Of a stretch of DNA of 39,908 bases, positions 5,585 to 37,603 are shown in pieces. Positions within the stretch are counted from its first letter, which is position 1. Each line of letters opens with the position of its first letter. The notes beneath the pieces were generated by a model, which saw only the letters and a list, made by a program, of their open reading frames with translations, was not told where the DNA came from and did not search any database. The position numbers were made by a program, and so were the translations under genes. The DNA is from an uncultured Erysipelotrichaceae bacterium (GTDB lineage Bacteria > Bacillota_I > Bacilli_A > Erysipelotrichales > Erysipelotrichaceae), in assembly GCA_902766435.1 (NCBI GenBank), contig CACXDM010000019.1:1-39908 (forward strand), written 5' to 3'.

Positions 5585-6395
5585 GATCATCTGTGATGTA
5601 TGTCCCCACCACTGTCATATCCCGGAAGGAAAAACAGGACTCTGCCGGGCGAGAATGAACCGTAACGGGACTAACTTCCCGGCAAACTTCGGAAGAATCA
5701 CATCGATTGCCGTAGATCCGATCGAGAAGAAACCGCTTTACGGTTTTTATCCCGGATCTTCAATTCTTTCCGTTGGAAGCTATGGATGCAATCTCGGCTG
5801 CCCGTTCTGTCAGAATCATTCCATTTCGATGGCAGATGAACATACCGTAAGATACGCCGAAATCAGTCCTCACGAACTCGCATCCATCTCTCTTGAACAT
5901 ACGGAAAGCATCGGCATTGCCTTCACCTACAATGAACCGATGATCTCCTATGAATACATTATTGAGACCGCCCGCCTGCTGGAAGGTTCCGGTCAGAAGA
6001 TCGTTCTTGTGACCAACGGATGTGTCAGTCCTCACATTACGGAGAAGCTGCTTCCTTATACAGACGCGATGAACATCGACCTGAAGGGAGACCGGGAATT
6101 CTACCGGGAACTGAAGGGTGATTATGATACTGTCAGGGAAACGATCAGAACCGTATACAACAGATGTCATCTGGAAGTAACGATCCTGCTGATCCCCGGA
6201 AAAAACGACAGTGAAGAATTCGTCCGCAGGGAAGCTTCGTGGCTGGCTTCACTGGATCCGGAAATCATCCTCCATCTGACACGGTACTTTCCCCGCTACC
6301 ATTACTCCCTGCCGCCCACAGACCCGGAGAAAATGAAGATACTGAAGCAGACCGCAAAGGAATATCTGCGGCATGTATATCTTGGCAACGTATAA
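5577..6395 (+). CDS. AmmeMemoRadiSam system radical SAM enzyme
   Basis: The protein has 272 residues from the ATG at 5577, which overlaps the preceding stop and follows GAGGTGG. The radical SAM cluster motif CNLGCPFC gives Cys 71, 75 and 78. An extra cysteine set at the N-terminus (CDVCPHHC, Cys 6, 9 and 13, plus Cys 23) is typical of this PflA-related subfamily. The later segments AFTYNEPMISYEY and VTNGCV match SAM-binding regions of activase-like enzymes. It should form a 4Fe-4S cluster and cleave SAM to a 5'-deoxyadenosyl radical. The substrate is unknown; the fused LigB-AMMECR1 protein is the obvious partner. The gene ends at a bidirectional terminator. Confidence 0.92.
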   Translation: MSEIICDVCPHHCHIPEGKTGLCRARMNRNGTNFPANFGRITSIAVDPIEKKPLYGFYPGSSILSVGSYGCNLGCPFCQNHSISMADEHTVRYAEISPHELASISLEHTESIGIAFTYNEPMISYEYIIETARLLEGSGQKIVLVTNGCVSPHITEKLLPYTDAMNIDLKGDREFYRELKGDYDTVRETIRTVYNRCHLEVTILLIPGKNDSEEFVRREASWLASLDPEIILHLTRYFPRYHYSLPPTDPEKMKILKQTAKEYLRHVYLGNV

Positions 6396-7679: not shown

Positions 7680-8969
7680 TTATCTCGGCTTGGAAAGATC
7701 CGTCAGGACCGCCCTTCTGTATGTGAAGATATTTACCACCATACACAGAAGAATGGGAATCAGAAGTTCGGCAATCAGAAGCACCATCATCTGCGGGCTG
7801 AGCCCTCCGTCCTTCATGATCGCTGTCATCATGACACCGATATAGATCAGCGTAATTCCCGCCACCATGCCGTAGAGCTTAATCACTTCGGTGTTGATGA
7901 CCTTCTTCAGATCCTTCTCCTCAAAACCGATCTGATAGAGTACCTCGAAGTACTTTCTTCTGCCGGTCTGTTCCGTTGAGGACTTGAACATGATCATCAT
8001 CGCCAGCAGGAAGTTCATCAGCACATACGAGAAGGAAAAGAGCATGGAGTCAAAGATCTGATCCTGTCTTTCGGCAATGATGGAAATCTGTACTACCGCG
8101 CATCCGATAAACAGAATGATGCTGCCTTTATTGATCATCAGATCCTTCCGCAGAAACCCGTTTCCGGCAAGGATTAACGGCTTGTTTACATTCGTCTTAT
8201 CCATGGACTTTGTAATCCGGGGAATGATGATGTAGTTCATGATACCCCAGACACCGATCAGTCCCATCAGCGAAACCGTCATCTTGGATACATTGGGATT
8301 GAACATCGCAAACAGCGGAATCAGAAACAGCGCAAGATAAAAGATCTGTTTGAAGACAGGCGGGATCGAACTGAGAAGTCCGCCGAATGTACCGCCTTCC
8401 TTTGTACTGTAGCTTCCGTCATTGGTCATCATTGAGAATGCCGCATTCGTATAGGTGAAGCTGAGATTTACCGCCATGGACCAGATCACGATCATTCCGA
8501 GCAGAATATAGACCAGAGTATTTGCCTCGGAATGGACACCGATCACAAGCGATGACGATGTAAAAGACGCAATCATGCTGTTCAGAACCGGCATCAGGAT
8601 ATATCCCGTCAGGATTCCCAGCGGAATCGAACAGATCATGATGATCAGAATCTGAACAAACAGATATGCAGTAACCTTGGTGAATGTCGCGCCGCAGATC
8701 ATTCTGACGGCGATATCCTTACCCTTTGAACGGACATAGAAGTTATTTGCGAAACTGATACACATCAGGCAGATCACCACAACGACAACAACGATGAATG
8801 TTGCGACAAGGTCTTCACCGGAAGTAATCAGCTTCATTCCCTTCGGATCACTCATCATGATATTGAAGAAGAGAAAGATAAACATCGATGTCAGGAAATA
8901 CGTAATCCAGTAAAAGAATGTCCTGGACTTATCGCTTCTCAGCGACCGTACTGCATCACGGAATGTCAT
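7680..8969 (-). CDS. ABC transporter permease, FtsX-like, compact BceB-like layout
   Basis: The 429-residue integral membrane protein has about ten hydrophobic segments, near residues 15-36, 57-76, 100-126, 150-170, 205-222, 228-246, 278-297, 308-330, 363-385 and 390-412. The first four with the intervening cytoplasmic part (FYVRSKGKDIAVRMICGAT) have the FtsX pattern also seen in BceB-type peptide-antibiotic permeases. BceB proteins carry a large extracellular domain between helices 7 and 8; here that loop is only about ten residues, which explains the short length. The ATG overlaps the ATPase stop as ATGA. No BceRS kinase/regulator pair is adjacent; a MerR gene lies upstream instead. The substrate is unknown. 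Confidence 0.85.
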   Translation of the reverse strand: MTFRDAVRSLRSDKSRTFFYWITYFLTSMFIFLFFNIMMSDPKGMKLITSGEDLVATFIVVVVVVICLMCISFANNFYVRSKGKDIAVRMICGATFTKVTAYLFVQILIIMICSIPLGILTGYILMPVLNSMIASFTSSSLVIGVHSEANTLVYILLGMIVIWSMAVNLSFTYTNAAFSMMTNDGSYSTKEGGTFGGLLSSIPPVFKQIFYLALFLIPLFAMFNPNVSKMTVSLMGLIGVWGIMNYIIIPRITKSMDKTNVNKPLILAGNGFLRKDLMINKGSIILFIGCAVVQISIIAERQDQIFDSMLFSFSYVLMNFLLAMMIMFKSSTEQTGRRKYFEVLYQIGFEEKDLKKVINTEVIKLYGMVAGITLIYIGVMMTAIMKDGGLSPQMMVLLIAELLIPILLCMVVNIFTYRRAVLTDLSKPR

Positions 8970-9736
8970 TTCTGCAATACCTCTCTGGATTCCTCCGCAT
9001 TAAGATCAACGATTTTCTGGAAATACTCTTCCTGCGTCATATCTCCCTTTTCCAGTTCCCGTTCGATATATCCGTCTTTGATAAAGACTAGACGTTTTGT
9101 ATAGGAGGTAATCAGCGGATCATGGGTAACCATGATAATCGTTACACCTCTTTCATCATTCAGCTGCTGAAGAATATGCATCAGTTCCGTGGAATTGGCA
9201 CTGTCCAGATTACCGGTCGGCTCATCGGCCACAATGATCTCAGGGTCATTAATCAGCGCGCGGCAGATCGCGGCACGCTGTCTCTGACCGCCGGAACACT
9301 CATTGGGAAATTTGTCCAAAAGAGACATGATCTTCATTTTCTCTGCCAGCGCTTTTACCCGCGGCTCAATATCCTTTTTCGGCACATCCGCAAGACTCAG
9401 AGGAAGCGCGATATTCTCAAACAGCGTATGGGTATTCAGAAGATTGAAATCCTGAAAGATGAAACCGAGATTCTTGAAACGGAAGCGGCCGATCTCATTG
9501 GAACTCATCGTACGGATCTCTTTGCCCTTGATCTTCACATGGCCTTCCGTGTATTGGTCAATCGTTGAAATATTATTGATAAATGTCGATTTTCCTGCTC
9601 CGCTCGGTCCCATGATACCGATGAATTCACCCTTTCTGACCTGAATATTGATATCATGGAGCGCTTCAAAAGCATTCGGCGTACGGTAATTATAGATTTT
9701 CTTCATGTGTTCAGCTTCAAGAATTACTTCATCCAT
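8966..9736 (-). CDS. ABC transporter ATP-binding protein (MacB/BceA-like)
   Basis: This is a complete ABC ATPase of 256 residues: Walker A GPSGAGKST (43-51), Q-loop Gln 95 in FIFQDF, signature CSGGQRQ (147-153), Walker B IIVADEP from about 167 with the GNLD loop, and switch His 205 in VTHD. The sequence type is that of MacB/LolD/BceA transporters, which pair with FtsX-type permeases. The start is set by AGGAGG eight bases before the ATG at 9736; longer starts have no ribosome site. It is the first gene of a two-gene operon with its own promoter, 85 bases after the MerR gene. Confidence 0.93.
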   Translation of the reverse strand: MDEVILEAEHMKKIYNYRTPNAFEALHDINIQVRKGEFIGIMGPSGAGKSTFINNISTIDQYTEGHVKIKGKEIRTMSSNEIGRFRFKNLGFIFQDFNLLNTHTLFENIALPLSLADVPKKDIEPRVKALAEKMKIMSLLDKFPNECSGGQRQRAAICRALINDPEIIVADEPTGNLDSANSTELMHILQQLNDERGVTIIMVTHDPLITSYTKRLVFIKDGYIERELEKGDMTQEEYFQKIVDLNAEESREVLQK

Positions 9737-9760
9737 TTTCGTTTCCTCCTTAAATCCGAA

Positions 9761-9805
9761 TGGTTGTTCTGAATTCATTATACAGAATCAGAGATTGTAT
9801 GACAT
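9761..9805 (-). promoter_or_regulatory. Promoter of the ABC operon with a MerR-type half site
   Basis: On the minus strand there is ATGTCA (9800-9805), a 17-base spacer and a perfect TATAAT (9777-9782). Just downstream, plus-strand TGGTTGTTC (9761-9769) is identical to the first nine bases of the dyad in the MerR-regulated promoter at 10647-10661. The half site may be a second contact for the same regulator; that is inference. Confidence 0.6.
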
Positions 9806-9821: not shown

Positions 9822-10622
9822 TTATCTGCCGTCTTCCTTCACGGGAAGATACGCTTCAAAGTATCTGTGGGGTTTTCCGTTTTCCTCCGTCTTGACCACC
9901 TGCCGCATGAAGAACATCCCGGCCGGTTCAAGACCGTGTTCAGAAGCGTAGGCAGTCAGCGGTTCGGCTACCGAAATACTGAAGTTCCAGGCATCTCCCG
10001 TATCAATGACGGAGGCAACGGCATGGCTGCCCGGAAGATGTCTTGCCTTAACGGGATTGTATTTGAACAGATCTCTCATCCATGTTCTGACCCCGAATCC
10101 CCATTCGTATTCATCATTCCGGATATCCGGGAATACCGCCATCATGAAACTGTACTGAAGACGGTTCATGATATATCTGTTTGACTCTATGCTTTCCTGA
10201 TCGAGCTGAAGTTCATTTCCCTTCTTTTCCGGAATGAAAACAATACTTTCAACAAATGACTCATGTACCTTTCCGAGCTCTTTCGGAATACTTCTGAGAA
10301 TCCGGAGATAATCTTCCGTATGTTCCTTCAGCCAGAAATATTCCTCAGCCTTTCTCTCGAATTCCGCCCGTTTTCTCTCCATCCGAAGCACATACTGTTC
10401 CAGACTGTCAGTGTCCATCATCGCCTTGATTTCACTGATGGAAAACTCATTGGCCTGATATCTTCTGCATTCCGCGATCCGGTACATCTGATAATCATCA
10501 TAATAACGATAGCGGTTAACAGGATCGATCTCAGGTGAGATGATTCCTTCTTTTTCATAAAACCGCAGTGTTTCTCTGGTGATATTCAGGATGCGGCAGA
10601 TATCCCTTTGTGTATATTTCAT
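9822..10622 (-). CDS. MerR family regulator with large C-terminal effector region
   Basis: The protein has 266 residues from the ATG at 10622, which GGAG precedes by a few bases. The N-terminal winged helix-turn-helix is clear (YTQRDICRILNITRETLRFYE, then the NRYRYY wing), followed by EFSISEIKAMM and a coiled coil at about 75-110. Residues 120-266 look like a GyrI-like/multidrug-binding domain with many aromatic residues. MerR regulators with such domains usually sense small hydrophobic ligands. It faces an orphan PTS IIB gene across a promoter with MerR geometry and lies just upstream of an ABC operon, so both are likely targets. No metal-binding cysteine motif is apparent. Confidence 0.88.
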   Translation of the reverse strand: MKYTQRDICRILNITRETLRFYEKEGIISPEIDPVNRYRYYDDYQMYRIAECRRYQANEFSISEIKAMMDTDSLEQYVLRMERKRAEFERKAEEYFWLKEHTEDYLRILRSIPKELGKVHESFVESIVFIPEKKGNELQLDQESIESNRYIMNRLQYSFMMAVFPDIRNDEYEWGFGVRTWMRDLFKYNPVKARHLPGSHAVASVIDTGDAWNFSISVAEPLTAYASEHGLEPAGMFFMRQVVKTEENGKPHRYFEAYLPVKEDGR

Positions 10623-10640: not shown

Positions 10641-10671
10641 TTGACCTGGTTGTTCCAACCACCTTTAGAAT
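10641..10671 (+). promoter_or_regulatory. MerR-type promoter and operator of the orphan IIB gene
   Basis: TTGACC (10641-10646) and TAGAAT (10666-10671) are separated by 19 bases, the over-long spacing that MerR activators correct by twisting DNA. The spacer contains the perfect dyad TGGTTG-TTC-CAACCA (10647-10661). The MerR gene starts 18 bases away on the other strand. Confidence 0.82.
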
Positions 10672-10694
10672 ACAGTCATCGGAGGAAAAAAAGA

Positions 10695-11111
10695 ATGCTG
10701 AAAATCATGATCACCTGCGGCGGCGGCTTCTCATCCAGCGCGCTTGTAACACACCTCAACAAAGAAACACAGGAAAAAGGACTCAGTGACAAAGCAGAAT
10801 TTGTCTTTAAGCCCTTTGACTTCGGCGGGATCGGAGATCTCGTGGGAAGTGTTGATATTGTCATGTTATGTCCTCATCTTGCCTATCAGTCAAAACAGCT
10901 GGCGGCACAGTATCCCGACAAACCGTTCTATGTCATCCCCACCCGTCTTTACGGACTGATGGCAGCCGAAGAATTCATCGAAGACGCGGAAGACGCAATC
11001 GAAGGCTGGAAGGAAACCGGAATGAACCCCTTCCACTTTGAAGGAGAAGAAACCGCAATCCGTGTCATGCGTACCGTTTCCCACAGGAAATGGCTCAAAT
11101 CACAGGGTTAA
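10695..11111 (+). CDS. Orphan PTS IIB subunit, lactose/cellobiose type
   Basis: The protein has 138 residues from the ATG at 10695, which follows CGGAGGAAAA. The P-loop MITCGGGFSSSALV carries Cys 8, the expected phosphorylation site of the lactose/cellobiose IIB fold. DIVMLCPHLAYQ and the IPTRLYGLMAAEEF segment match the rest of the domain. Typical family members have about 100-105 residues; this one has an extra tail of about 30 residues. No IIA or IIC gene is adjacent, and the gene is transcribed alone from a MerR-type promoter. It may serve a PTS encoded elsewhere or act as a phosphorylation-dependent signal protein; the sequence does not decide. Confidence 0.85.
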   Translation: MLKIMITCGGGFSSSALVTHLNKETQEKGLSDKAEFVFKPFDFGGIGDLVGSVDIVMLCPHLAYQSKQLAAQYPDKPFYVIPTRLYGLMAAEEFIEDAEDAIEGWKETGMNPFHFEGEETAIRVMRTVSHRKWLKSQG

Positions 11112-11118
11112 CTGAATA

Positions 11119-11144
11119 TGGTCTGCTGCGGCAGATCTTTTTTT
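11119..11144 (+). terminator. Terminator after orphan IIB
   Basis: TCTGC (11122-11126) and GCAGA (11131-11135) form a short stem with a four-base loop, followed by TCTTTTTTT. Confidence 0.75.
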
Positions 11145-11154
11145 ATACCCGAAC

Positions 11155-11198: not shown

Positions 11199-13145
11199 TC
11201 AGTTAATTTCAAATACGAATGCTTTGTCGTGAGCGCTGTGCAGAGCATCATAGATCTGCCCTGCTTTTGCGGCATCACCGACCAGAATCAGATTATCGCC
11301 GTAAGCTTCCTTCAGCGCCTCATAACCTTCTCTTTCCGGTCTGACGCCTGCTGCCAGAATCACCGTATCCGCAGCGATCTCTGCTTCTTCGCCGGAAGCA
11401 GTATCCTTGACCGTAATACATCCGTCCGCAATCTTCGTTACCATCTTTCCTTTGGCAACCGTACCGCCGGTCTTCATGATCTCCTGCACAAGATGCATCG
11501 TTACACTCGGATACAGATTTCCTCCGACCTTATTCAGCATCTCCACAACCGTGACCTTATGGTCCTTTGCCAGATATTCAGCTGTTTCAAGACCGGTGAC
11601 ACCACCGCCCAGTACGACGATGTTTTCACCTTTGACTTCAGCTTTGCCGGCAAGAACATCCTCTGCCGTCACAGCCTTTTCAATTCCTTCAACCGGCGGA
11701 ACGGAAGGCTTTCCGCCTGCAGCGAAGAATACCGCTTCCGCACCGTCTGCCTTAACTGTACCGGCATCAGCTTTTGTATTCAGCTTTACTTCAACACCGT
11801 ATTTTTCAAGTTCTGCCTTCTGCGTTTCAATAAACTCGGAAAGCATTCCTTTAAACGGCGGCACCGCTGCGAGATTTACCGTACCGCCAAGCTTGTCATC
11901 AGCTTCGTACAGTGTGACTTTATAGCCCTTCTTTGCCAATGTAACAGCTGCCTGCATGCCAGCCGGACCGCCGCCGATCACAGCTGTCTTTCTTCCGTTA
12001 CCGTCACATGTCAGTTTCTGATCGCCCCATTCGAATTCACGGCCGAGAACGGGATTCAGCGTACAGCCAAGAGGCAGTCCGTCATTCAGTATACGGAAGC
12101 ACTCCATGCATCCGAGACACTTTCTGATCAGTGTGTCTTCGCCTTTCTTTGCCTTGAGACCCCATTCCGGATCAGCAAGGAAGCCTCTTGCGATACCGAC
12201 GAAATCACAGTTGCCCTCTTCCAGCATCTCTTCGGCAAATGAGGGATGTTTGATGTTGTCCACCGCGATTACCGGAATATTGACGGCTTTGCGGATATTT
12301 CCGCCGAGCTGTCTCTTCCAGCCTTCAGCGTAGAATGAAGGCTCAATAATCGTCGAACCGGAATCATACATGCCGCAGCTGACATTCAGACACTGAATTC
12401 CGAGAGCTTCAAGATATTTCGCAATCTCAATGCCTTCTTCCTCGTCAATTCCTCCCGGCAGATAGTCACTGCCGTTCATCCTGACGGAGATCGGGAATTT
12501 CGGTCCGCAGTATGCCTGAATCCCCTTGACGATTTCTGTGACGAAACGCATTCTTCCTTCGAAGCTTCCGCCGTATTTGTCAGTACGCTTATTGGTATAC
12601 GGAGAAAGGAACTGGGAAACCAGATACCCGTGAGCAGCGTGGATTTCAACACCGTCCACACCTGCTTTCTGTGCAATCACGGCGCCTGTCACAAATTTCT
12701 TTACCATTCCCTCTACTTCTTCCGTTGTCAGGGCTCTTGGCTGTTCACCGATTACTCTGCAGGTAACATCGGATGCCGAGACAGGCTGTTTTCCGCCGAT
12801 CAGTCTGGAAGGCGTCTGGTTGCCGGGATGGTGCAGCTGGATAAACAGTTTCGTGTCATACGCATGAACTGCTTCAGCAAGACGGCTCAGCTGAGGAACA
12901 ACATGTGTGTTTGTCACACTGAGCTGATTCGGAGTACCGACACCTGTTTCGTCATCGATTCTGGTAATTTCGGTAATGATGAGTCCCGCTCCGCCGCGGG
13001 CACGCTCGGCATAGTAACGGATCATTCTCTGGCCGGCTTCGCCGCTTACTTCTGCGAGAGAACAACCCATTGCCGTCATGACGATCCTGTTTTTCAGCTC
13101 AAGACCGCCGATCTTTCCGGGCGCAAATAATTTTGTGTAAGTCAT
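11199..13145 (-). CDS. NAD(P)H-dependent FAD/FMN oxidoreductase, Old Yellow Enzyme / 2,4-dienoyl-CoA reductase family
   Basis: The 648-residue protein has the family's three parts. Residues 1-335 are an OYE-type TIM barrel with HAAHGYL (169-175) and the SPYTNKRTDKYGGS stretch. An iron-sulfur binding set follows at Cys 343, 346, 349 and 361. From about 385 come the FAD/NAD(P) dinucleotide folds, with IGGGPAGMQAA near 390-400 and LGGGVTGLETAEYL near 515-528. Relatives reduce activated double bonds of enoyl-CoA compounds, bile-acid intermediates (BaiCD/BaiH) or plant enones, so the substrate cannot be read from sequence. The start has CAGGAGGACAAA before it. The gene is single, with its own terminator, downstream of a PTS operon and a small membrane protein gene. 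Confidence 0.92.
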   Translation of the reverse strand: MTYTKLFAPGKIGGLELKNRIVMTAMGCSLAEVSGEAGQRMIRYYAERARGGAGLIITEITRIDDETGVGTPNQLSVTNTHVVPQLSRLAEAVHAYDTKLFIQLHHPGNQTPSRLIGGKQPVSASDVTCRVIGEQPRALTTEEVEGMVKKFVTGAVIAQKAGVDGVEIHAAHGYLVSQFLSPYTNKRTDKYGGSFEGRMRFVTEIVKGIQAYCGPKFPISVRMNGSDYLPGGIDEEEGIEIAKYLEALGIQCLNVSCGMYDSGSTIIEPSFYAEGWKRQLGGNIRKAVNIPVIAVDNIKHPSFAEEMLEEGNCDFVGIARGFLADPEWGLKAKKGEDTLIRKCLGCMECFRILNDGLPLGCTLNPVLGREFEWGDQKLTCDGNGRKTAVIGGGPAGMQAAVTLAKKGYKVTLYEADDKLGGTVNLAAVPPFKGMLSEFIETQKAELEKYGVEVKLNTKADAGTVKADGAEAVFFAAGGKPSVPPVEGIEKAVTAEDVLAGKAEVKGENIVVLGGGVTGLETAEYLAKDHKVTVVEMLNKVGGNLYPSVTMHLVQEIMKTGGTVAKGKMVTKIADGCITVKDTASGEEAEIAADTVILAAGVRPEREGYEALKEAYGDNLILVGDAAKAGQIYDALHSAHDKAFVFEIN

Positions 13146-13649: not shown

Positions 13650-14492
13650 TTAATATGTAAGGTTCGGGTTAAAGAAGCCGACAAGTACACCGATAAAGGC
13701 AATAACAACAAGCAGCAGCATAACCTTCAGCGGAGACATCTTCTTCTTAGCCATCAGCCACCAGCACAGAATGACGAAGCATGCGGTCAGCAGACCGGGG
13801 AATACACTGTCCAGTTTTTCCTGAAGAACCATGTATGCTTCACCGGATTCATTTACGAGCTGAAAGCTTGTCTTTACGCTTACCCATGTAGCGGATACGG
13901 CACCGATGACAATTCCGCCGAGTGTTGTGACAGATTCACGGATCGCTTCACCGATATCACCGATCAGGAATTCAACGGCTTTTGTACCGAGCTCATAGCC
14001 CTTGAAGTACAGCAGTCTCATTCCGAAATATGCGAACAGGTTCCAGGCAATGATATAGAAGATCGCACCGATCGGGGATCCTCCTGCCGACATACCCATG
14101 GCAATACCGAGAAGGATAGGAATAACGGTACCGACAACAAGAGAATCACCGATACCTGCGATCGGTCCCATCAGACCGGCACGCAGACCGTTGATTGTTT
14201 CATCATCAACATCTTCCTGACCGTTGGCTCTGGCTTCTTCAAGACCGGCTGTGATACCGATGACAACTGCACCGAGCTGAGGCTCCGTATTGAAGAAAGC
14301 GGTATAAGTATTCATTGCGGAGGCTTTCTTGTCTTCGTCTCCTTCATAGAGTTCTTCAACGAGCGGCAGCATGGAGCAGAGGTAGCCGAATGTCTGCATG
14401 TGTTCCTGTGAGAAACAGGTCAGATTTCCGTAATACCAGTTATGGAAGCTTTTCGTCAAAGCCTTTTTGGAAAGTTTCTTAGCTTCTGTCAT
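13650..14492 (-). CDS. PTS mannose/fructose/sorbose family IID subunit
   Basis: The protein has 280 residues from the ATG at 14492, one base after the IIC stop and preceded by GAGGAGGAG. It shows the IID pattern: an N-terminal amphipathic region (SFHNWYYGNLTCFSQEHMQTFGY), the conserved GLMGPIAGIGDSL in the middle and hydrophobic C-terminal segments. IID joins IIC to form the membrane channel of mannose-class PTS permeases. It is the last of four PTS genes in the order IIA, IIB, IIC, IID. Confidence 0.95.
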   Translation of the reverse strand: MTEAKKLSKKALTKSFHNWYYGNLTCFSQEHMQTFGYLCSMLPLVEELYEGDEDKKASAMNTYTAFFNTEPQLGAVVIGITAGLEEARANGQEDVDDETINGLRAGLMGPIAGIGDSLVVGTVIPILLGIAMGMSAGGSPIGAIFYIIAWNLFAYFGMRLLYFKGYELGTKAVEFLIGDIGEAIRESVTTLGGIVIGAVSATWVSVKTSFQLVNESGEAYMVLQEKLDSVFPGLLTACFVILCWWLMAKKKMSPLKVMLLLVVIAFIGVLVGFFNPNLTY

Positions 14493-14493
14493 G

Positions 14494-15339
14494 TCAGATC
14501 TCCTCCTCGTCATCGTCGAAGTCTGCCCCGCCTGCGGCAGCCGGTTTTCTCAGTTCAAGCATTTTCAGCTTGTAGATCAGAATTGCAAACATACCTGCCA
14601 CAACGGTAGCGGATACGAGATTGATTCCCAGAGAAGCAGCGAGTGTGAAACCGAACAGATAAGGGATAAAGTCCGTCACTTTCCTGACGATCTGCTTCAG
14701 AAGGATCGCAATACCTACACAGGGAAGCAGTGATCCGACGGTGAACAGTGTCTTCATTGCGATACCGTCCATCGGCAGAGCTACCTTGATTGCGTCAACA
14801 ACACTTGCCCCGAGTTTGCACATAATGACTGTGGGAATCAGTGAGAAGCAGATGTGAGAGATCCAGGGCAGAACCATATCAACGAGATACAGCTTCCTGT
14901 AGTCTCTCTTTTCAACTGCTGTCCAGCCGATGTGCTGCCAGAGCAGGTTCATCGTTGCTGTTCCGTAGAACAGAACTGTTCCGATTGTACCGACCATGGT
15001 GCCGAAGGATGTGGCCAATGCTGCTCCGTCAGCGGAACTTGCTTCAAGACCATAGCTCTTCAGGGCAACCATTGCCAGAGGGATACCGATATAGGATACG
15101 GCACGGACATCTGCCGAAACAGTTCCGCCCGGAGTAACCAGTGCAATATAGACAACCTGCATTGCCGTACCGACCATGATACCGGTGGCGACATCACCGA
15201 GGATAATACCGCAGATCAGTCCGCCGACAAGCGGTCTGCCCAGCGTGTAGTTTCCGATGGAAGTGCCGCCCATACCGGGCATACTGGAAAGAGATGCGAA
15301 TATGCCAAGCAGAATTGCCTGAAACCAACTAATAACCAT
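14494..15339 (-). CDS. PTS mannose/fructose/sorbose family IIC subunit
   Basis: The 281-residue polytopic protein has the mannose-class IIC signatures near the N-terminus (GRPLVGGLICGIILGDVATG at about 34-53, then MQVVYIALVTPGG). The C-terminal tail is acidic (DFDDDEEEI). The ribosome site AAGGAGAT is good. It is the sugar-translocating channel together with IID. The substrate (mannose, fructose, sorbose, hexosamine or an Amadori compound) cannot be assigned. Confidence 0.95.
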   Translation of the reverse strand: MVISWFQAILLGIFASLSSMPGMGGTSIGNYTLGRPLVGGLICGIILGDVATGIMVGTAMQVVYIALVTPGGTVSADVRAVSYIGIPLAMVALKSYGLEASSADGAALATSFGTMVGTIGTVLFYGTATMNLLWQHIGWTAVEKRDYRKLYLVDMVLPWISHICFSLIPTVIMCKLGASVVDAIKVALPMDGIAMKTLFTVGSLLPCVGIAILLKQIVRKVTDFIPYLFGFTLAASLGINLVSATVVAGMFAILIYKLKMLELRKPAAAGGADFDDDEEEI

Positions 15340-15362
15340 TTTCTATCTCCTTATTATTCAAA

Positions 15363-15863
15363 TCAGTCTGTGAATCCGAAACGGCCGCGGAACTTTCTCC
15401 AGTTGCCGATTGCCTCTTCTTTCAGAAGAGCGAATTCAACTTCGTAACCGGCTTTCATGATTCTTTCGAGTGCTTCCGCTTCTTCCTGTGTGATTGACTG
15501 GTTGTTTCCCAACTTTACCGCACCCGGACGGTCATTGCACGGACCGATAATGACTGTCTTGACATCACTCGGAACAAAGCCCTGGTCTACCAGAAGCGTT
15601 GCCATGTCAATGGGATTCTTCGTGATCAGAAAGTATCTGTCCTTACTGGCAAGAACCTTCGGACTCTTTTCCTTGAATTCATCAATAGACCATACAAACG
15701 TTTTCTTTCCGCTTGCGCTCTTGTAAGCGGACTTGAGAACCGGATTCTTCGCTGCCGCATTATTGACAGCGATCAGTCCGTCACACGGATACTCAAGAGA
15801 CCATCTTGTACATGTCTGTCCGTGAATCATACGGTCATCAACTCTAACAAATGATACTGACAT
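15363..15863 (-). CDS. PTS mannose/fructose/sorbose family IIB subunit
   Basis: The 166-residue protein has VRVDDRMIHGQ at the N-terminus, with His 14 as the phosphorylation site expected for mannose-class IIB. The rest matches the family, including the C-terminal half with KTVIIGPCNDRPGAVKLG. AAGGAG precedes the ATG. IIA and IIB are separate polypeptides here, unlike the fused IIAB of E. coli ManX. Confidence 0.95.
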   Translation of the reverse strand: MSVSFVRVDDRMIHGQTCTRWSLEYPCDGLIAVNNAAAKNPVLKSAYKSASGKKTFVWSIDEFKEKSPKVLASKDRYFLITKNPIDMATLLVDQGFVPSDVKTVIIGPCNDRPGAVKLGNNQSITQEEAEALERIMKAGYEVEFALLKEEAIGNWRKFRGRFGFTD

Positions 15864-15874
15864 CTTTTTTCTCC

Positions 15875-16312
15875 TTAGATAAAATCTTCTGAATCTTCTT
15901 CAGCTGCGATTGTGAATTCCTGAATCATTTCCCTGGCTTCGGAAACTGCGCTTGTCCGGACAAACTCACCGAAATCTTCTGCGAAGTCTTTTGACAGAAC
16001 CGTATTCAGTACAAGCGGAAGATTCATACCTCCGACCATGACCGTCTTTCCGATCAATCCGGCTTCCGCAAGAACATTTGCGGCAGTGGTCAGCGGTGAA
16101 CCTCCGACGATATCGGCAAACATCGCAATCTCATCTTCTTTGCCGATTCCTTTGATCAGTTCTCTGACATTCTCCGCGAATTCATCGGCACCCATACCAT
16201 TTTTCAGGCTGGTGGAAAGAATGTCTTCTCTGTCGGAACCGGCGAGCATTTCGATTGCCTTATGCAGTCCCGGTGCGAATTCACCATGACTGACGAGCAG
16301 TACGTATCTCAT
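15875..16312 (-). CDS. PTS mannose/fructose family IIA subunit
   Basis: The protein has 145 residues from the ATG at 16312, which follows GGGAGG; an upstream in-frame TTG is not needed. YVLLVSHGEFA places the phosphorylated His at residue 9, and ADIVGGSP and GGMNLP are the later family motifs. It takes phosphate from HPr and passes it to IIB. It is the first gene of the PTS operon, with a promoter and a candidate response-regulator site upstream. Confidence 0.95.
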   Translation of the reverse strand: MRYVLLVSHGEFAPGLHKAIEMLAGSDREDILSTSLKNGMGADEFAENVRELIKGIGKEDEIAMFADIVGGSPLTTAANVLAEAGLIGKTVMVGGMNLPLVLNTVLSKDFAEDFGEFVRTSAVSEAREMIQEFTIAAEEDSEDFI

Positions 16313-16336
16313 ACTCAACCTCCCTTCACTGATTAA

Positions 16337-16365
16337 ATTCTAGAAAACCGTACTTCCGATTTCAG
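16337..16365 (-). promoter_or_regulatory. Promoter of the PTS operon
   Basis: On the minus strand there is CTGAAA (16360-16365), a 17-base spacer and TAGAAT (16337-16342). The weak -35 fits a promoter that needs an activator. A sigma-54 type -24/-12 element, common for levansucrase-type PTS operons, is not seen. Confidence 0.6.
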
Positions 16366-16388
16366 GTGAAGAATGTCATCTTGATGCC

Positions 16389-16401
16389 TGACAATTGTCA
16401 T
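16389..16401. promoter_or_regulatory. Candidate operator TGACAATTGTCAT upstream of the PTS operon
   Basis: A 12-base perfect palindrome, TGACAATTGTCA, plus one T is centred about 65 bases upstream of the inferred start site, a usual activator position. The same 13-mer with one change lies upstream of the sensor operon at 20805-20817. Confidence 0.65.
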
Positions 16402-16431
16402 AAAAAAACCTGCCCCGCTTCCGGGTACAGG
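16402..16431 (-). terminator. Terminator of the sensor operon
   Basis: On the minus strand CCTG.ACCCG and CGGG.CAGG form a GC-rich stem with a GAAG loop and seven T. It closes the binding-protein/kinase/regulator operon. Confidence 0.88.
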
Positions 16432-16450
16432 CTGATCTGATAAGCTCATA

Positions 16451-17755
16451 TTATTTTTTATTCAGGAATTCCGTGATTTCCCGCTCTGCCGAATACATCA
16501 GTCCGCCGATTGAAACAGATGAATTCTGACTCTCATTTACAGCCGCTTCCGCCATATTCATTGCCTGATCATATTTGGAGAAGCGCGGGCTGACTGCCGC
16601 AGTACTCATAATCTCACTGATCAGCTCATTGCCGAACGCCCCGCCGCCGGGAATATCATGACGCAGAAGCAGTTCGTTGTCCTTGTTTCCCGTTACGGAT
16701 TTCAAAGGTGAGATACCGTGGGAATAGCGGTAGATGTTCTGCTGAATATCGGGATCACTGCAGAGCAGCACGGCAAAGTCCAGAGCCAGGTCCGTATGCC
16801 GGCTCCGGGAACTCAGACCGACGAGCATCGTATGGAGTTCGGAGATGTTGTCACCTTTCGGTCCTGCCGGCATAGTGACCGCGTCCCATTCAAAATGTGT
16901 ATACCGCTTCACACGCCACGGGTACGGCTGATATGCCCTGTATTCCGAATAGAGGAATGGTCTGAATGCGACATAGCCAAGGTCAAAATCCTTGGAAGTG
17001 ACAGTATAGCCTTCATTCAGTGCTTTCAGTTTCTGAACGAACTGTACCGCCTGCTGCACTTTATCATCCGACAGGAAACATTTCTTACCGTCGTCGGAGA
17101 ACAGTGAAGCTCCGTTGGAATACAGAGCGCTTGTCCAGGTATAGTTATAGACACCGTACCTGTGATTCTCCGGATCCGTCACCTTCTGGCAGATCCGGTA
17201 GAAATCATCCCATGTCCAGTCACTGCCGGGGAATTCAATTCCGTTTTCCGCCAGAAGAGTTTTATTGACAAACATGATGGAAGGCACACTCTCATGCGGC
17301 AGCGCATACTGAACCCCGTTGTATCTCCCCGCCAGAAGACAGGGTGAATAAAAGTCTTCACGATGGAATTCCTTTTTTTCAAACAGCATGTCATCCAGTT
17401 TGGCCAGAGCTCCCGAAGATGCCAGAAGCGTAAAATCCTCCGGCAGCACAAAATAGAGATCCGGTTCCTTTCCGAGCAGGATCTGTTCGGCAAGCCATTC
17501 ACTGTAATCATCTGCTCCGATTCCGCTCACATAATTTACTTTGACATTCGGATGCTGTTCTTCAAACTCAGAAATCGCGGTATCAAGAATCTGATAACAG
17601 TCTCCATTCGGCGTATCCCAATAACTTCCGGAATAGACTCCGATTGTCAGTGTCACTTGATTGTAAAGGCCGGAAATCCGCCATGCCCCTACCACCATGA
17701 CAATCAGAACCGTCACAACAACAAGCAGAGATATCTTGTTTTCATTTCTGCTCAT
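16451..17755 (-). CDS. Membrane-anchored extracellular solute-binding protein, family 1
   Basis: The 434-residue protein has an uncleaved N-terminal hydrophobic anchor at about 9-26 (no lipobox, no clear signal peptidase site) and an extracellular sugar-binding fold of the family-1 (MalE-like) type: TLTIGVYSGSYWD, FEEQHPNVKVNYVSG, PDLYFVLPED, and later WTWDDFYRICQKVTD. No ABC permease or ATPase gene is adjacent, so a transport role is unlikely. The ATG overlaps the response-regulator stop as ATGA, placing it in the sensor operon. It probably presents a carbohydrate signal to the kinase, or feeds ligand to the neighbouring PTS; the former is preferred from the operon context. Confidence 0.85.
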   Translation of the reverse strand: MSRNENKISLLVVVTVLIVMVVGAWRISGLYNQVTLTIGVYSGSYWDTPNGDCYQILDTAISEFEEQHPNVKVNYVSGIGADDYSEWLAEQILLGKEPDLYFVLPEDFTLLASSGALAKLDDMLFEKKEFHREDFYSPCLLAGRYNGVQYALPHESVPSIMFVNKTLLAENGIEFPGSDWTWDDFYRICQKVTDPENHRYGVYNYTWTSALYSNGASLFSDDGKKCFLSDDKVQQAVQFVQKLKALNEGYTVTSKDFDLGYVAFRPFLYSEYRAYQPYPWRVKRYTHFEWDAVTMPAGPKGDNISELHTMLVGLSSRSRHTDLALDFAVLLCSDPDIQQNIYRYSHGISPLKSVTGNKDNELLLRHDIPGGGAFGNELISEIMSTAAVSPRFSKYDQAMNMAEAAVNESQNSSVSIGGLMYSAEREITEFLNKK

Positions 17756-18414
17756 CTTTTGTGGTTCATTCCTTTCTGCACAGCCCATATTGCCAGCTGT
17801 GTTCTGTCACGGAGGTTCAGCTTCATCAGAATACTGCTGATATAATTCCTGACAGTCCCTTCGGATAAAAACAGTGTCCCTGAAATCTCCTTGTTGGAAA
17901 GACCTCTCGCAATGGCCATGATGATCTTCCTTTCGTTTTCATTCAGATCCTTTGCGACACGTTCATCCACGTAGATTCCGTTTGAACTGTTCGCCATGGC
18001 CGAAAACTGACTGATGACTTTGCTGGCAATTTCCGGATTGATCATTGCTCCGCCGCCATAGGCAATCTGTACAGCATCTGTCAGTTCAGACAGACTGCAT
18101 CCTTTCAGCAGATAACCGCTCGCCCCGTATTTCAGAGCTCCGTATACATATTCGTCATCATCAAAAGTCGTCAGGACAATCACCTTGATCTCCGGATACT
18201 TGTTCTTGATCACTCTTGTACCTTCCACGCCGTCTTTGCCCGGCATGCGGATGTCCATCAGAATTACATCCGGTTTATTTTCCGCAATACTCTGCAGAGC
18301 ATCATCCACGCAGCATACCGAACCGGTCACATCAATATCCCCGGATGACTGCAGAATAATACCCAGGCTTTCACGAAACAGTTCCTGGTCATCAACAATC
18401 AGCACTTTGATCAT
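17752..18414 (-). CDS. NarL/LuxR family response regulator
   Basis: The protein has 220 residues. The receiver domain shows VDDQE at 8-12, phospho-acceptor Asp 54 in ILMDIRMPG, the Thr/Lys switch region (VLTTFDD, then GYLLKG). The C-terminal LuxR-type helix-turn-helix runs about 155-215 (LNENERKIIMAIARGLSNKEI, then EGTVRNYISSILMKL). It starts inside the end of the kinase gene (23-base overlap) with GGAGGAG before the ATG. NarL-type regulators bind inverted repeats as dimers; the TGACAAWTGTCAT sites upstream of its own operon and of the PTS operon are good candidates. Confidence 0.95.
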   Translation of the reverse strand: MIKVLIVDDQELFRESLGIILQSSGDIDVTGSVCCVDDALQSIAENKPDVILMDIRMPGKDGVEGTRVIKNKYPEIKVIVLTTFDDDEYVYGALKYGASGYLLKGCSLSELTDAVQIAYGGGAMINPEIASKVISQFSAMANSSNGIYVDERVAKDLNENERKIIMAIARGLSNKEISGTLFLSEGTVRNYISSILMKLNLRDRTQLAIWAVQKGMNHKR

Positions 18415-19744
18415 GTTTCTGCTCCTCCTCTTTTTTTCTTACGGGCAGACTCGCAATCACATAAAACCCGTTTTCTCCGTCACCCGGATCATCCCTGCGG
18501 TTGCCGTATGTCAGAGAGCCGCTGAGAAGATCCAGTCTTTCCTGCATATGTCTGAGACCGAACCCTTCCGTAACACTGCTGCATCCCTTTCCATTGTCAC
18601 GTATATCGATCACCAGAACATCGTCATGTTTGCTCATCCGGATCCGGATGTAATCCGCGTGTCCATGGCGGACAGCATTCGTCATGCATTCCTGTATGAT
18701 CCGGTACAGTGTATCTTCTTCGTCTTCCGCAAAATCAAGGCTTCCCGCCTCCTGTTCGTAACGGATAAAAGCGGAAGTCGTTGCCTGAAACTTGATGATC
18801 ATTTCCTCAAGTGCCTGATCCAGGTTATGTTTTTCCAGTGCGTCCGGACGGAGCGCCTTAATTGACTGTCTGACATCAGCCAGTCCATCTCTGGCGGACT
18901 GCGTGACTGTTTCCATCTTTTTTCTTGCCTCACCCGGATTTATGTCAAACAAGGCAAGCGAAGCCTGAGAGCCCATAATGATTCCGGTAAGCGTATGTCC
19001 GAGCGTATCATGGATTTCTCTGGCAAACCGGTTCCTCTCCCGGATTTCGGTCATCCGCTCCATTTCGGCATTGATTTTCTTCAGCTGCAGATTGGCGTCA
19101 CTCAGCTGATTGTTCAGGCTCTGGATCCGTTCATTCTCCTCTTTCTGTCCGGCAAACAGCTGCACCATATAAAAGACAAAAAGAAGCGTGTTGGCGGAAA
19201 CCAGAGTACTTTCTATACCTGACAGAAACATTCTGATCCCCGGTTTATAGTATTCCAGATAAACCGATAACGGAGTTCTTGATGACGCTACCGGAAGCAC
19301 TTCATAACGCCCCACTGCGAAGATCAGCGTCAGCAGTCCGATCAGAAGAAACCGTACCCTGTTGTTTCTGACATCATTCACAAGATCCGTCAGAACCAGA
19401 AGCGCGATTCCGCTGTAATAGAAATTCAGCGATTCAATCAGCAGAACACAGATAATAATCTCAACAGCGCAGACAGACCAGACCGGAAACCTGTTTCCGG
19501 CAGATGATCTTCCTTTACGGAAACTGATCTGCCAGAGAACAAAAAACAGCATCACCGCCATCAGCGGCATCCTCATCGGTTTCATCGGAATTCTGTCTGC
19601 TTCGGAAATAAACTGATAAGCAGAAAACGAATGACAGATACGGTATGTGGTTGCCGGAACAATCATGCAGTAATACAGAATGATTACTGCATTCAGAACA
19701 TACATCAATATTGAAGTATCCTTCAGAAGCTTTTCATTCCGCAT
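18392..19744 (-). CDS. Sensor histidine kinase, HisKA_3 type
   Basis: The protein has 450 residues from the ATG at 19744 (TGATG overlap with the preceding stop). The N-terminal 200 residues hold about five or six membrane segments with little extracellular sequence, followed by a coiled coil (about 200-235). The dimerisation box REIHDTLGHTL has the phosphorylated His at 245. The ATPase domain shows IIQECMTNAVRHG (about 349-361) and DNGKG (about 383-387). With almost no sensor domain of its own, the kinase probably reads the state of the tethered binding proteins encoded on each side. The partner regulator is downstream. Confidence 0.93.
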   Translation of the reverse strand: MRNEKLLKDTSILMYVLNAVIILYYCMIVPATTYRICHSFSAYQFISEADRIPMKPMRMPLMAVMLFFVLWQISFRKGRSSAGNRFPVWSVCAVEIIICVLLIESLNFYYSGIALLVLTDLVNDVRNNRVRFLLIGLLTLIFAVGRYEVLPVASSRTPLSVYLEYYKPGIRMFLSGIESTLVSANTLLFVFYMVQLFAGQKEENERIQSLNNQLSDANLQLKKINAEMERMTEIRERNRFAREIHDTLGHTLTGIIMGSQASLALFDINPGEARKKMETVTQSARDGLADVRQSIKALRPDALEKHNLDQALEEMIIKFQATTSAFIRYEQEAGSLDFAEDEEDTLYRIIQECMTNAVRHGHADYIRIRMSKHDDVLVIDIRDNGKGCSSVTEGFGLRHMQERLDLLSGSLTYGNRRDDPGDGENGFYVIASLPVRKKEEEQKHDQSADC

Positions 19745-20721
19745 CACTGCCACCCGAATGTCCCGTATTCGCTGACATTCTTTTCCGTAATCAGTTTTAC
19801 CTTGATAATGATTTCCTTTTCCACTTCCAGCCCCTTCAGCGAGCGGTAGGCAGCAGACACTGCCTCATCCGCCATTACATTCGGAAACTGAGCACAGCTT
19901 GCGGTCATCATCCCGTCATTAATCAGTGTTTTTGCCTCAGGCGAACCGTCGACACTGTACACAAGAAAACGGTCCGAAAGCCCTGCTCCCTCAATCGCAG
20001 CCATTGCCCCGAACGCGCTTGGATCATTCAGCGCCATTACCGTATCGGCATCGGGATATTTCCGCAGCAGTTCTTCCATAACAGGCATGGCATTCTCAAT
20101 CTGTCCGTCTGACTCACCGGATCCGACAACTTCAAATCCGTCATGGCCGGCAATCGTATCGGTAAATCCCCTGATTCTCTCCGTTCCGGAACGGGCAGTA
20201 ATATGTTCGAGAAGAATGATCTTTGCCTCATCACGCACGGAAAGAAGATGCTCTGCACAGAGCACTCCTGCCTGATAGTTATCCGAAACAACCGAGCACG
20301 TCACAGATTCAGGATTACTGACAAACGTGTCTACAACAATAATCTTCACACCAGCCGCACGGGCAGCTTCTATCCCTTCGGATGCATGATCCCATTCAAC
20401 AGGTGTCAGAAATATCACTTCCGCACCCGAATTGATCAGTTCCCTGATTTCCTCATTCTGCCTGTCCTGATTCATTGCGGCATCACGTGTCAGAAGAACG
20501 TCTCCGTTCTTTTCAATATCAGCCCGCATCTGACTGTCAACAGTCTGATAGAACGGGTTATTCATCGTCATATATGTCGCGCCGAAAATATTTCTTTCTT
20601 CCTTTCCGCCAAGGGAAATATCCTCCGGAAGAAGGAAAAGAACATAAGCCACGCCAAAGGCAGCTGCCAGTATCAGAAAAATGCTGAAATTCAGAAAATA
20701 CTTTTCTTTCCTGTCATTCAT
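19744..20721 (-). CDS. Membrane-anchored RbsB-like sugar-binding protein
   Basis: The 325-residue protein has one uncleaved N-terminal transmembrane anchor (about 9-31) and an extracellular periplasmic-binding-protein type 1 fold of the RbsB/XylF class: GATYMTMNNPFYQTV, AEVIFLTPVEWDH, KIIVVDTFV, DADTVMALNDPSAFGA, and a C-terminal sugar-binding portion with FPNVMADEAVSAA. No ribose-type ABC transporter genes follow; the next gene is the kinase, coupled by overlap. It should act as the ligand-binding arm of a three-component sugar sensor, similar in logic to tethered XylF-type sensors. GGGGG precedes the ATG. Confidence 0.88.
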   Translation of the reverse strand: MNDRKEKYFLNFSIFLILAAAFGVAYVLFLLPEDISLGGKEERNIFGATYMTMNNPFYQTVDSQMRADIEKNGDVLLTRDAAMNQDRQNEEIRELINSGAEVIFLTPVEWDHASEGIEAARAAGVKIIVVDTFVSNPESVTCSVVSDNYQAGVLCAEHLLSVRDEAKIILLEHITARSGTERIRGFTDTIAGHDGFEVVGSGESDGQIENAMPVMEELLRKYPDADTVMALNDPSAFGAMAAIEGAGLSDRFLVYSVDGSPEAKTLINDGMMTASCAQFPNVMADEAVSAAYRSLKGLEVEKEIIIKVKLITEKNVSEYGTFGWQ

Positions 20722-23152: not shown

Positions 23153-24193
23153 TTAATAACCGTAGCTCAGAACTTCCCAGCTGCCGCCTTCACTGCGGGC
23201 AAGATACCATTCATAATCGGTATATTCATGGTCGGGCTCAAAAGCTCCGGAGTTTTCAGCAGGTGTATGGAAATCACTGAGGAACTTGATACATTCCGTA
23301 TATTCCTGATCCTCTCTGAGTTCATTCATCCATTTGATGTTTTCCTCACTGTTGCAGTCATCGGAAGTATAACGGATATTGTGCAGCTCGCATCCGGCAA
23401 AATCCGCGAACACCTTTCTGATCTGCGTGATTGCTTCATCCATATCATCCTTTGTATAGATCTCGGAAGTTCCGTAATCGATTTCCACATCAACCGAACT
23501 GGCCTCACCGAGATATTCCTCAAGAGTGATTCCCTGTTCCATGATCTCTCTTGCGGAAGCCTGACCGACATACCTGATATGCCATGGCTCATAATTGAAT
23601 CCCGTGATGTCTTCCTTCCCCTCAAGATAATGGAGAATAAAACCGTGTTCGGCGAGTCTTGCGTGGACTTTTGCCCAAAGATCAGAATACTCCAGCATTT
23701 CCTCATTCTCGTAAACTGCTTCTCCGTCAACAATCAGATACAGATCCAGAGCGAGTCCGGTATGATGTTCCGAATATCCCGGCGCTGCCACATTCAGACG
23801 CACATATTCCTCACCATAGCGTTCCGTATAGTCATCTGCGACTGCCTGCTGTTCCTCAACACTGCGGTATCCCGAATAAATATCAACATTGACATGATTC
23901 TGCGCAAGGTCATCTTTGAGCTCCGCGAAGGCATCAGCGGTTTTCTTTTCCAGGCTTATCTCATCGCCCATTGAATTCTTCAATGTCACAAATTCAGCCT
24001 GATCCGCCCAGTCAGCAGGAACTTCCTTCTGCCTGTTCACAAGAACAAGATAATCGATTTCATTTTCATCCGGATTCGGTATCTCTTCTGAAACCGGCGG
24101 AACAGACGAAGACGGAACTGTATTCTGTGTGCATCCGGTCACCGATAAAACAGCGCTCATCATAAGCATTGATATCAAGTATTTACTCTTCAT
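23153..24193 (-). CDS. VanY-like D-Ala-D-Ala carboxypeptidase lipoprotein (copy 1)
   Basis: The protein has 346 residues. The lipobox SVTGC gives a lipidated Cys 21. The M15 peptidase domain (about 85-230) has YSGYRSVEEQQ (106-116), the zinc motif SEHHTGLALD (141-150, ligands His 143 and Asp 150) and EPWH (202-205, catalytic Glu 202 and ligand His 205). It should remove the terminal D-Ala from peptidoglycan stem peptides at the outer membrane face. A C-terminal domain of about 110 residues (from TSEIYTKDDMDEA to the final SYGY) is shared with the copy at 36566-37603. The ATG lies inside the end of the surface-protein gene (11-base overlap), so the two are coupled. No vanHA ligase genes accompany it. 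Confidence 0.92.
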   Translation of the reverse strand: MKSKYLISMLMMSAVLSVTGCTQNTVPSSSVPPVSEEIPNPDENEIDYLVLVNRQKEVPADWADQAEFVTLKNSMGDEISLEKKTADAFAELKDDLAQNHVNVDIYSGYRSVEEQQAVADDYTERYGEEYVRLNVAAPGYSEHHTGLALDLYLIVDGEAVYENEEMLEYSDLWAKVHARLAEHGFILHYLEGKEDITGFNYEPWHIRYVGQASAREIMEQGITLEEYLGEASSVDVEIDYGTSEIYTKDDMDEAITQIRKVFADFAGCELHNIRYTSDDCNSEENIKWMNELREDQEYTECIKFLSDFHTPAENSGAFEPDHEYTDYEWYLARSEGGSWEVLSYGY

Positions 24194-36565: not shown

Positions 36566-37603
36566 TCAATATCCCCAGCTGACAATTTCCCAGCTGCCTT
36601 CCTGATCACAGCCGAGCCACCACTGGTAGTTCTTGTATTCCATATCCGATTCAAAGGCATTTTCACTCACCTTGGGAGAATGAAAATCCATCAGAAATTC
36701 AGCCACTTTTACATACTCCGCAGTTTCACTCATTGAATTGATCCACTTCAGGTTTTCTTCAGATACTGCTTCATCCCCGGCATAGCGGATACTGTGGAGT
36801 TCACAATCCTTCCATGCGGCGAACTGACATTTGATCAAAACTGCCATCTCCTTCAGTTCCTCTTCGCTGTAAACTGCCGATTTACCCAAATCCACTGTCA
36901 CATCGGTTTCATTTACTGCGCCGAGATATCCTTCAAGAGTAACGCCTGTATCCATGATTTCCTTTGCTTTTTCCTTATCCTGAATATAACGGATATGCCA
37001 CGGTTCATATGCATAGCCGGTAATCTGTTCCTTACCTTCAAGATAGCGGAGAATAAAACCATGCGCCGCCAGTTTATCATGAATCTTTGCCCAGATTTCC
37101 GGATACTGAACCAGATCTTCATTCTCAATGATATCCTTCCCGTCAACATTCAGATAGAGATCCAGCGCAAGACCGGTATGGTGTTCGGAATAACCGGGTA
37201 CCGCAACGACTTTTGCGGCATAGTCAGCCCCGTATTTTTCCGTAAACCTGTCCATGATCTCCTGCTGTGCCTCAACCGTTCTTCTTGCGGAATCCAAGTC
37301 AACATGAATGCCTTCGGCTTCGAGTTCTTCCTTTAAAGCCAGATATTCTTTGTACGCATTCACTTCCACTTCAACATCATCACCGAGTGAATTAGTGCAG
37401 TGTTCAACTTTCAGATTGGCCTCCCAGTCCTCCGGCAGCGGATTCAGCTTGTTGACGAGAACCATGTAGTTGATATCGTAACTTTCCGCCTCAGATGACT
37501 GCTGTCCGGCTGAAGAAGATACCGCAGCACCATTGCTGCAGCCGGCCATGAGACCGCCCATCATAAGCAGTGCAGCACAGACATATATCATGTTATGTTT
37601 CAT
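36566..37603 (-). CDS. VanY-like D-Ala-D-Ala carboxypeptidase lipoprotein (copy 2)
   Basis: The 345-residue paralogue of the protein at 23153-24193 has the same order of parts. The lipobox LMAGC has Cys 22. The M15 domain has SEHHTGLALD (139-148, ligands His 141 and Asp 148) and EPWH (200-203). The C-terminal domain ends in VSWGY. The arginine region reads DSARRTVEAQQ against YSGYRSVEEQQ in copy 1, so specificity may differ. TTGGAGGTGAAAA precedes the ATG. It is transcribed alone, with its own terminator. Confidence 0.92.
   Translation of the reverse strand: MKHNMIYVCAALLMMGGLMAGCSNGAAVSSSAGQQSSEAESYDINYMVLVNKLNPLPEDWEANLKVEHCTNSLGDDVEVEVNAYKEYLALKEELEAEGIHVDLDSARRTVEAQQEIMDRFTEKYGADYAAKVVAVPGYSEHHTGLALDLYLNVDGKDIIENEDLVQYPEIWAKIHDKLAAHGFILRYLEGKEQITGYAYEPWHIRYIQDKEKAKEIMDTGVTLEGYLGAVNETDVTVDLGKSAVYSEEELKEMAVLIKCQFAAWKDCELHSIRYAGDEAVSEENLKWINSMSETAEYVKVAEFLMDFHSPKVSENAFESDMEYKNYQWWLGCDQEGSWEIVSWGY

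Follow-up and report, generated by a model that had tools for sequence, protein, structure and literature searches.

What does a regulator that is predicted to resemble drug sensors control when it stands next to a lone PTS subunit gene? The usual targets of such MerR regulators are genes for export or detoxification, and a IIB subunit is normally found in the company of its transporter. In the 39,908-nt stretch of DNA analysed here (hereafter the window), which comes from an Erysipelotrichaceae bacterium of gut or rumen origin, genome site searches leave the MerR regulator with one detectable target, a small stand-alone IIB, and the arrangement is conserved in relatives. The explanation that we consider best, and to which we would give an even chance, is a BmrR-type activator dedicated to a single IIB that would act as a regulatory phospho-carrier or adaptor. 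We found no description of a MerR-controlled orphan IIB in the literature searched, in which coverage of subscription papers was limited. Comparison of sequences brings out the site, its pairing with the regulator, their conservation, the predicted folds of the two proteins, a tail on the IIB and its co-occurrence with a IIA (Table 1).

The region between the two divergent genes has the layout that the first-pass annotation had read as a MerR-activated promoter, and the sequence bears this out: TTGACC and TAGAAT are separated by exactly 19 bp and enclose a perfect 15-bp dyad with 6-bp arms and a 3-bp centre. A spacer of 19–20 bp holding an inverted repeat, the trait of promoters served by BmrR-type MerR proteins, is thus present here as well as in the corresponding sites of the genus. 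The interval first assigned to the IIB gene ended correctly, and its start, at 10641, had taken in the promoter as well. Since a hairpin and T-run directly follow the gene and the next gene is convergent, the transcript is probably monocistronic.

Table 1. Features of the MerR–IIB locus, in coordinates of the window
Feature	Coordinates	Strand	Basis
Divergent MerR-family regulator, 266 aa, predicted BmrR/GyrI-like effector domain	9822..10622	-	Pfam MerR_1, AF2, Foldseek
-35 element TTGACC of the putative IIB promoter	10641..10646	+	TTGAC invariant in 14 distinct sites
Putative operator dyad TGGTTG-TTC-CAACCA within the 19-bp spacer; conserved core TGGT-N7-ACCA	10647..10661	+	Sequence, genus site comparison
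-10 element TAGAAT	10666..10671	+	TANNNT in 13/14 distinct sites
Likely ribosome-binding site CGGAGGA of IIB	10680..10686	+	Sequence
Long-form lactose/cellobiose-type PTS IIB, 138 aa, Cys8 (codon 10716-10718) in loop CGGGFSSS	10695..11111	+	Pfam, profile, AF2
C-terminal tail of IIB, about residues 105–138	11007..11108	+	Alignments
Intrinsic-terminator-like hairpin (11120-11137) and T-run directly after IIB	11120..11146	+	

Could such a layout have arisen by chance, or belong to another regulator, with MerR and IIB as mere neighbours? The two promoter elements at this spacing are indeed common in the window, where TTGAC-N20-TANNNT alone occurs 4 times vs 1.03 expected, but the full site is a different matter. 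The window's genome holds a single copy, even when 2 mismatches are allowed, and the 70 genus genomes hold 14 copies in 13 of them (one site per genome, two in a single genome), with none for the reversed pattern used as a control. All 14 sites lie upstream of the orthologous long IIB, with 19–31 nt between the -10 element and the ATG; a further, degenerate site at L013/L135 has 97 nt in that interval. Together with the co-occurrence of MerR and the re-made pairing at a second IIB, both described below, this makes coincidence highly improbable. The dyad that the first-pass annotation had proposed to trace in other genomes is therefore conserved, in part: the conserved portion is TTGAC[C/A/T]TGGT-N7-ACCA, and the 6-bp arms are not kept as a whole. 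Their inner positions vary, with only partial symmetry in several genomes, and the covariation between positions 11/17 of the dyad is no more than suggestive (p 0.10). No wider regulon of the operator was found, the own genome holding that one site with 2 mismatches allowed; further 2-mismatch matches in other genomes fall below the consensus.

Regulator and site also travel together. Among 60 relatives, a MerR ortholog (E < 1e-100) is found in six genomes (G000, the window's own, and G011, G014, G016, G021 and G026), and the same six carry the site at a IIB; in terms of co-occurrence, this is 6/36 for each, in identical genomes (p 5e-7, uncorrected for relatedness). A seventh site match, in G022, has one mismatch and no dyad and was set aside as a chance match. 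In a further set of twelve genomes, reached via fetched loci (G439 being the same genome as G014), five additional genomes have both MerR and site, two (G438 and G434) have the site without MerR, and none has MerR without the site. In G026, MerR is paired divergently with another IIB paralog (44% identical), and TGGTGGTTACCA lies between the two; the full site is found in this genome at the 88% identical IIB ortholog, which is on a separate contig. The regulator thus follows IIBs rather than one locus, and it has been paired with IIB genes twice. The divergent MerR–IIB pair, whose conservation had likewise been put forward as a check, is accordingly kept in relatives.

The loci that have lost the regulator add a complementary line of evidence. 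At L014/L015, MerR has suffered an internal deletion that joins, in frame, the first about 30 to the last about 15 residues, and at L009/L010 no MerR adjoins the IIB, which comes straight after genes that sit 4.3 kb upstream in the window. All four loci have the consensus -35 element TTGACA, and all 12 loci with an intact MerR neighbour have TTGACC or TTGACT. This change, which rests on two independent loss events and hence on a small count, fits a promoter that would need its activator and that was strengthened once the activator was gone. Of the two genomes with a site but no detected MerR, G434 has a decayed right half of the dyad (ACCA to CCCG), and G438 has a dyad that is still intact, as would follow from a recent loss. 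Because the site is conserved, MerR co-occurs with it and the -35 element changes where MerR is lost, control of the IIB by MerR, as the first-pass annotation had supposed from the promoter, is very likely on these comparative grounds.

What kind of signal might the regulator receive? Its ATG lies at 10622 on the minus strand, and its N-terminal helix-turn-helix is recognised by Pfam (MerR_1, 2.4e-14). By sequence, this DNA-binding part alone is recognised, the Pfam search of the MerR sequence having returned no GyrI-like match. The AF2 model (pLDDT 90.6) has the long dimer helix (74–115) and a GyrI/BmrR-like effector domain, and the top 8 Foldseek matches are all full-length BmrR (E 4e-13). 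As the match to BmrR spans the whole model, the effector part is, at the level of predicted structure, of the multidrug-sensor type, and the earlier designation of the regulator as drug-type holds up. BmrR and EcmrR, which have such GyrI-like effector domains, activate promoters with 19-bp spacers via bending and untwisting (PMC7722741; PMC8113463).

The IIB retains what a PTS subunit would need and carries something more. It belongs to PF02302 by a weak but above-threshold Pfam PTS_IIB match (4.3e-7, 30.9 bits vs a cut-off of 23.6) and falls short of TIGR00853, the lactose/cellobiose transporter subunit IIB family (40 bits vs 110). Profiles match it to solved IIB chains (2l2q at 2.8e-10, 1h9c and 4mge), and its AF2 model (pLDDT 79.8) matches the chitobiose/cellobiose IIB structures 2wy2 and 1iib. 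C8, in the N-terminal loop, is invariant in 29 of 29 aligned members, and a second Cys, in a CPH motif, is mostly conserved in this alignment. A lactose/cellobiose-type IIB with a phospho-Cys, as first annotated, is therefore what fold prediction and alignment point to. The extra C-terminal tail noted at the same time turns out to be conserved as well: F115, E118 and R126 are invariant in the 29 members, across two families, and SHRKW is nearly constant within the window's clade. Confidence in the model is lowest for this tail (pLDDT about 50–69).

Such long IIBs form a subfamily of which no description was found in the literature searched. Of 60 relatives, 33 have matches, with between one and five in each of these genomes and most of them 130–145 aa in length; they extend across two families of the order, and a sample of 392 genomes from the phylum yielded none outside this order at E <= 1e-20. 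A branch of 5.2 with support 100/100 separates the long clade from the genome's short IIBs. Since the dyad, one G026 paralog aside, is confined to one 19-member subclade (14/19), MerR control is, by this comparison, a trait of one IIB branch and not of all long IIBs. In another subclade of long IIBs (L024/L025), about 65 nt upstream of the IIB at 6001, TTGAAA-N19-TAATAT/TAATGT encloses a different palindrome, CTGAATTCAG, which is possibly the mark of a second regulator of the same kind; no adjacent MerR was found there.

Does this IIB still take part in phosphotransfer, and if so, for transport or for signalling? A Lac-type IIA is present in 15/15 genus genomes with a long IIB vs 5/21 without (36 sampled; p 3e-6, uncorrected for relatedness), and because of this co-occurrence PTS phosphorylation is likely still relevant to the long IIB. 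The window itself contains no linked IIA or IIC of the lactose/cellobiose type. In the same genome, an 88% complete draft in 223 contigs on which the tally of IICs vs IIBs is based, the Lac-type PTS genes are scattered, mostly over different contigs: one IIA was detected (contig C22), along with three Lac-type-looking short IIBs (C22, C124 and C96) and three such IICs (C99, C140 and C198). The solitude of the IIB, which the first-pass annotation had taken as a hint of a signalling role, is thus a weak argument, as further IIBs and IICs of the Lac type likewise lack linkage, and the only Lac-type IIA detected is on another contig. The accompanying remark that IIA and IIC are missing is correct for the Lac type in the window, and overlooks a complete PTS IIABCD at 13650-16318, 2.5 kb from the IIB, which belongs to the unrelated mannose family. 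Shared control with this system was considered and rejected, as no operator site is present there, and no nearby IIA/IIC operon under the same regulator emerged. The mannose-family genes are part of a longer minus-strand set (13650-20721), in which IID, IIC, IIB and IIA are followed by an extracellular solute-binding protein, a LuxR-type response regulator, a histidine kinase and a sugar-binding periplasmic-type protein, apparently combining this PTS with external sensing.

The scattered genes also suit a second reading, possible if somewhat doubtful, according to which the IIB would be an ordinary transport subunit: MerR would sense a substrate-like molecule and supply an inducible IIB for an unlinked IIC, with the IIA shared. 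The dispersal of solitary IIB and IIC genes and of one Lac-type IIA over separate loci of one genome, the retained Cys8 and its loop, and the restriction of long IIBs within the genus to genomes with a Lac-type IIA are all compatible with this, and non-cognate IIA–IIB transfer inside a family is known from B. subtilis (PMC6148471). However, the long IIBs are a distinct clade with a conserved extra tail and reach five paralogs per genome; the window's genome has three in excess, its IICs being already equalled in number by the short IIBs. Neither a Lac-type IIC nor a Lac-type IIA was recognised among the neighbours read, and the operator is absent in front of every IIC, both in the own genome with 2 mismatches allowed and in the 70 genus genomes. 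As long IIBs exceed IICs, the tail is constant and no IIC is linked to the site, we regard a regulatory role as somewhat better supported than an even chance relative to transport, and it is plausible from the sequences that the IIB carries a signal rather than sugar.

Third, the protein may have left the PTS altogether and, as a reactive-cysteine or ligand-binding protein with an IIB-like fold, handle a toxic or electrophilic compound together with MerR. The resemblance of the MerR effector domain to multidrug sensors, the Old-Yellow-type flavin reductases that adjoin related MerRs in G053 and G026, the flavin reductase and ABC exporter-like pair that flank the MerR–IIB pair in the window, and the Cys of the CPH motif would all agree with such a function, which we nevertheless consider distinctly unlikely: the Cys8 loop is as in phosphorylated IIBs, the co-occurrence with IIA in the genus is strict, and the neighbours are not conserved across genomes. 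Across about 40 loci, none but MerR is generally conserved, and ABC exporter pairs, an esterase, a TetR gene and flavin reductases recur at some loci only; for this reason, a function of the IIB based on its operon was rejected.

Several of these surroundings merit description. Directly downstream of MerR lie an FtsX-type permease and an ABC ATPase (7680-9778, minus strand); related pairs adjoin long IIBs in L021, L023 and L079 without being generally conserved, and in L009, L010 and L084 a pair of half-size ABC exporter genes comes after the IIB. Convergent with the IIB is an Old-Yellow-type flavin/pyridine-nucleotide reductase (11199-13145, minus strand) that resembles mycofactocin OYE2, BaiCD and the long bilirubin reductase and scores below all their cut-offs. 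Distant MerR relatives adjoin reductases of this type in L119 (G053; 2298-2425) and L120 (G026, contig C339), and the divergent reductase promoter of L119 reads TTGACT-AGGGGCTAAGCCCCTACTT-TAAAAT, a 19-bp spacer with a perfect dyad. A putative esterase (PF00756) is encoded near MerR in two genomes and, in two more, comes immediately after the IIB (L011 29-868, L012 1515-2342, L017 1938-2774, and L027 after the IIB). Farther away in the window, two similar minus-strand genes (23153-24193 and 36566-37603) encode, according to their ORF translations, VanY-type carboxypeptidase-like lipoproteins with a shared C-terminal domain.

Returning to the dedicated activator and its regulatory IIB, we infer from the above that MerR is activated by a ligand, that Cys8 is phosphorylated and that the IIB has a role other than transport. 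The regulator would be a BmrR-type, ligand-responsive activator serving one gene, its dimer sitting on TGGT-N7-ACCA inside the overlong 19-bp spacer. Upon ligand binding, it would bend and untwist the spacer, giving sigma access to both promoter elements and allowing the monocistronic IIB to be made, and MerR's own expression would probably be limited via the same overlapping divergent site. The IIB, with its lactose/cellobiose IIB fold and phospho-Cys, would probably receive its phosphoryl group on Cys8 from the single Lac-type IIA, whose gene lies elsewhere. Its most likely function would be regulatory, as a phospho-carrier or adaptor and not as a subunit for transport, the conserved tail being its candidate partner-binding part. 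Such a one-regulator, one-target unit appears to be kept across the genus in changing surroundings, and the target is a member of a long-form IIB subfamily from gut and rumen bacteria. Should the IIB prove to be a signal carrier, the PTS would gain a new output; should it prove to be part of a transporter, a PTS subunit would have come under a drug-type sensor.

How does this unit compare with known systems? The phosphorylation state of IIB domains serves as a signal where IIBs act on PRD regulators such as MtlR, and we propose this as an analogy for the IIB described here. By extension, the tailed IIB might be a phospho-switch that, through its MerR-gated expression, couples phosphotransfer status to a chemical signal and possibly acts back on MerR, an elaboration that we consider rather unlikely; PRD regulators carry PTS domains, whereas this MerR carries none, and a MerR–IIB contact is hypothetical. 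BmrR of Bacillus subtilis shares with the present regulator the 19-bp spacer with a pseudo-palindrome, found in its bmr promoter, and the predicted fold over the full length, but the two are about 15% identical in sequence, and the BmrR target is a multidrug exporter gene instead of a PTS IIB. EcmrR, a multidrug-sensing protein of E. coli, is the best sequence-profile match of MerR among solved structures (2.2e-9, N-terminal part) and likewise combines a 19-bp spacer promoter with a GyrI-like effector domain (PMC8113463); it differs in its target gene, and the effector domains have no close sequence relationship. Finally, ChbB of E. coli (1iib, 2wy2), the B. anthracis protein 4mge and the Borrelia protein 2l2q share with our IIB the predicted fold and the N-terminal Cys loop, at about 25% identity over residues 2–101. 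These IIBs, however, are about 103–116 aa in length and have no tail, whereas the long forms constitute a separate, well-supported clade with constant tail residues.
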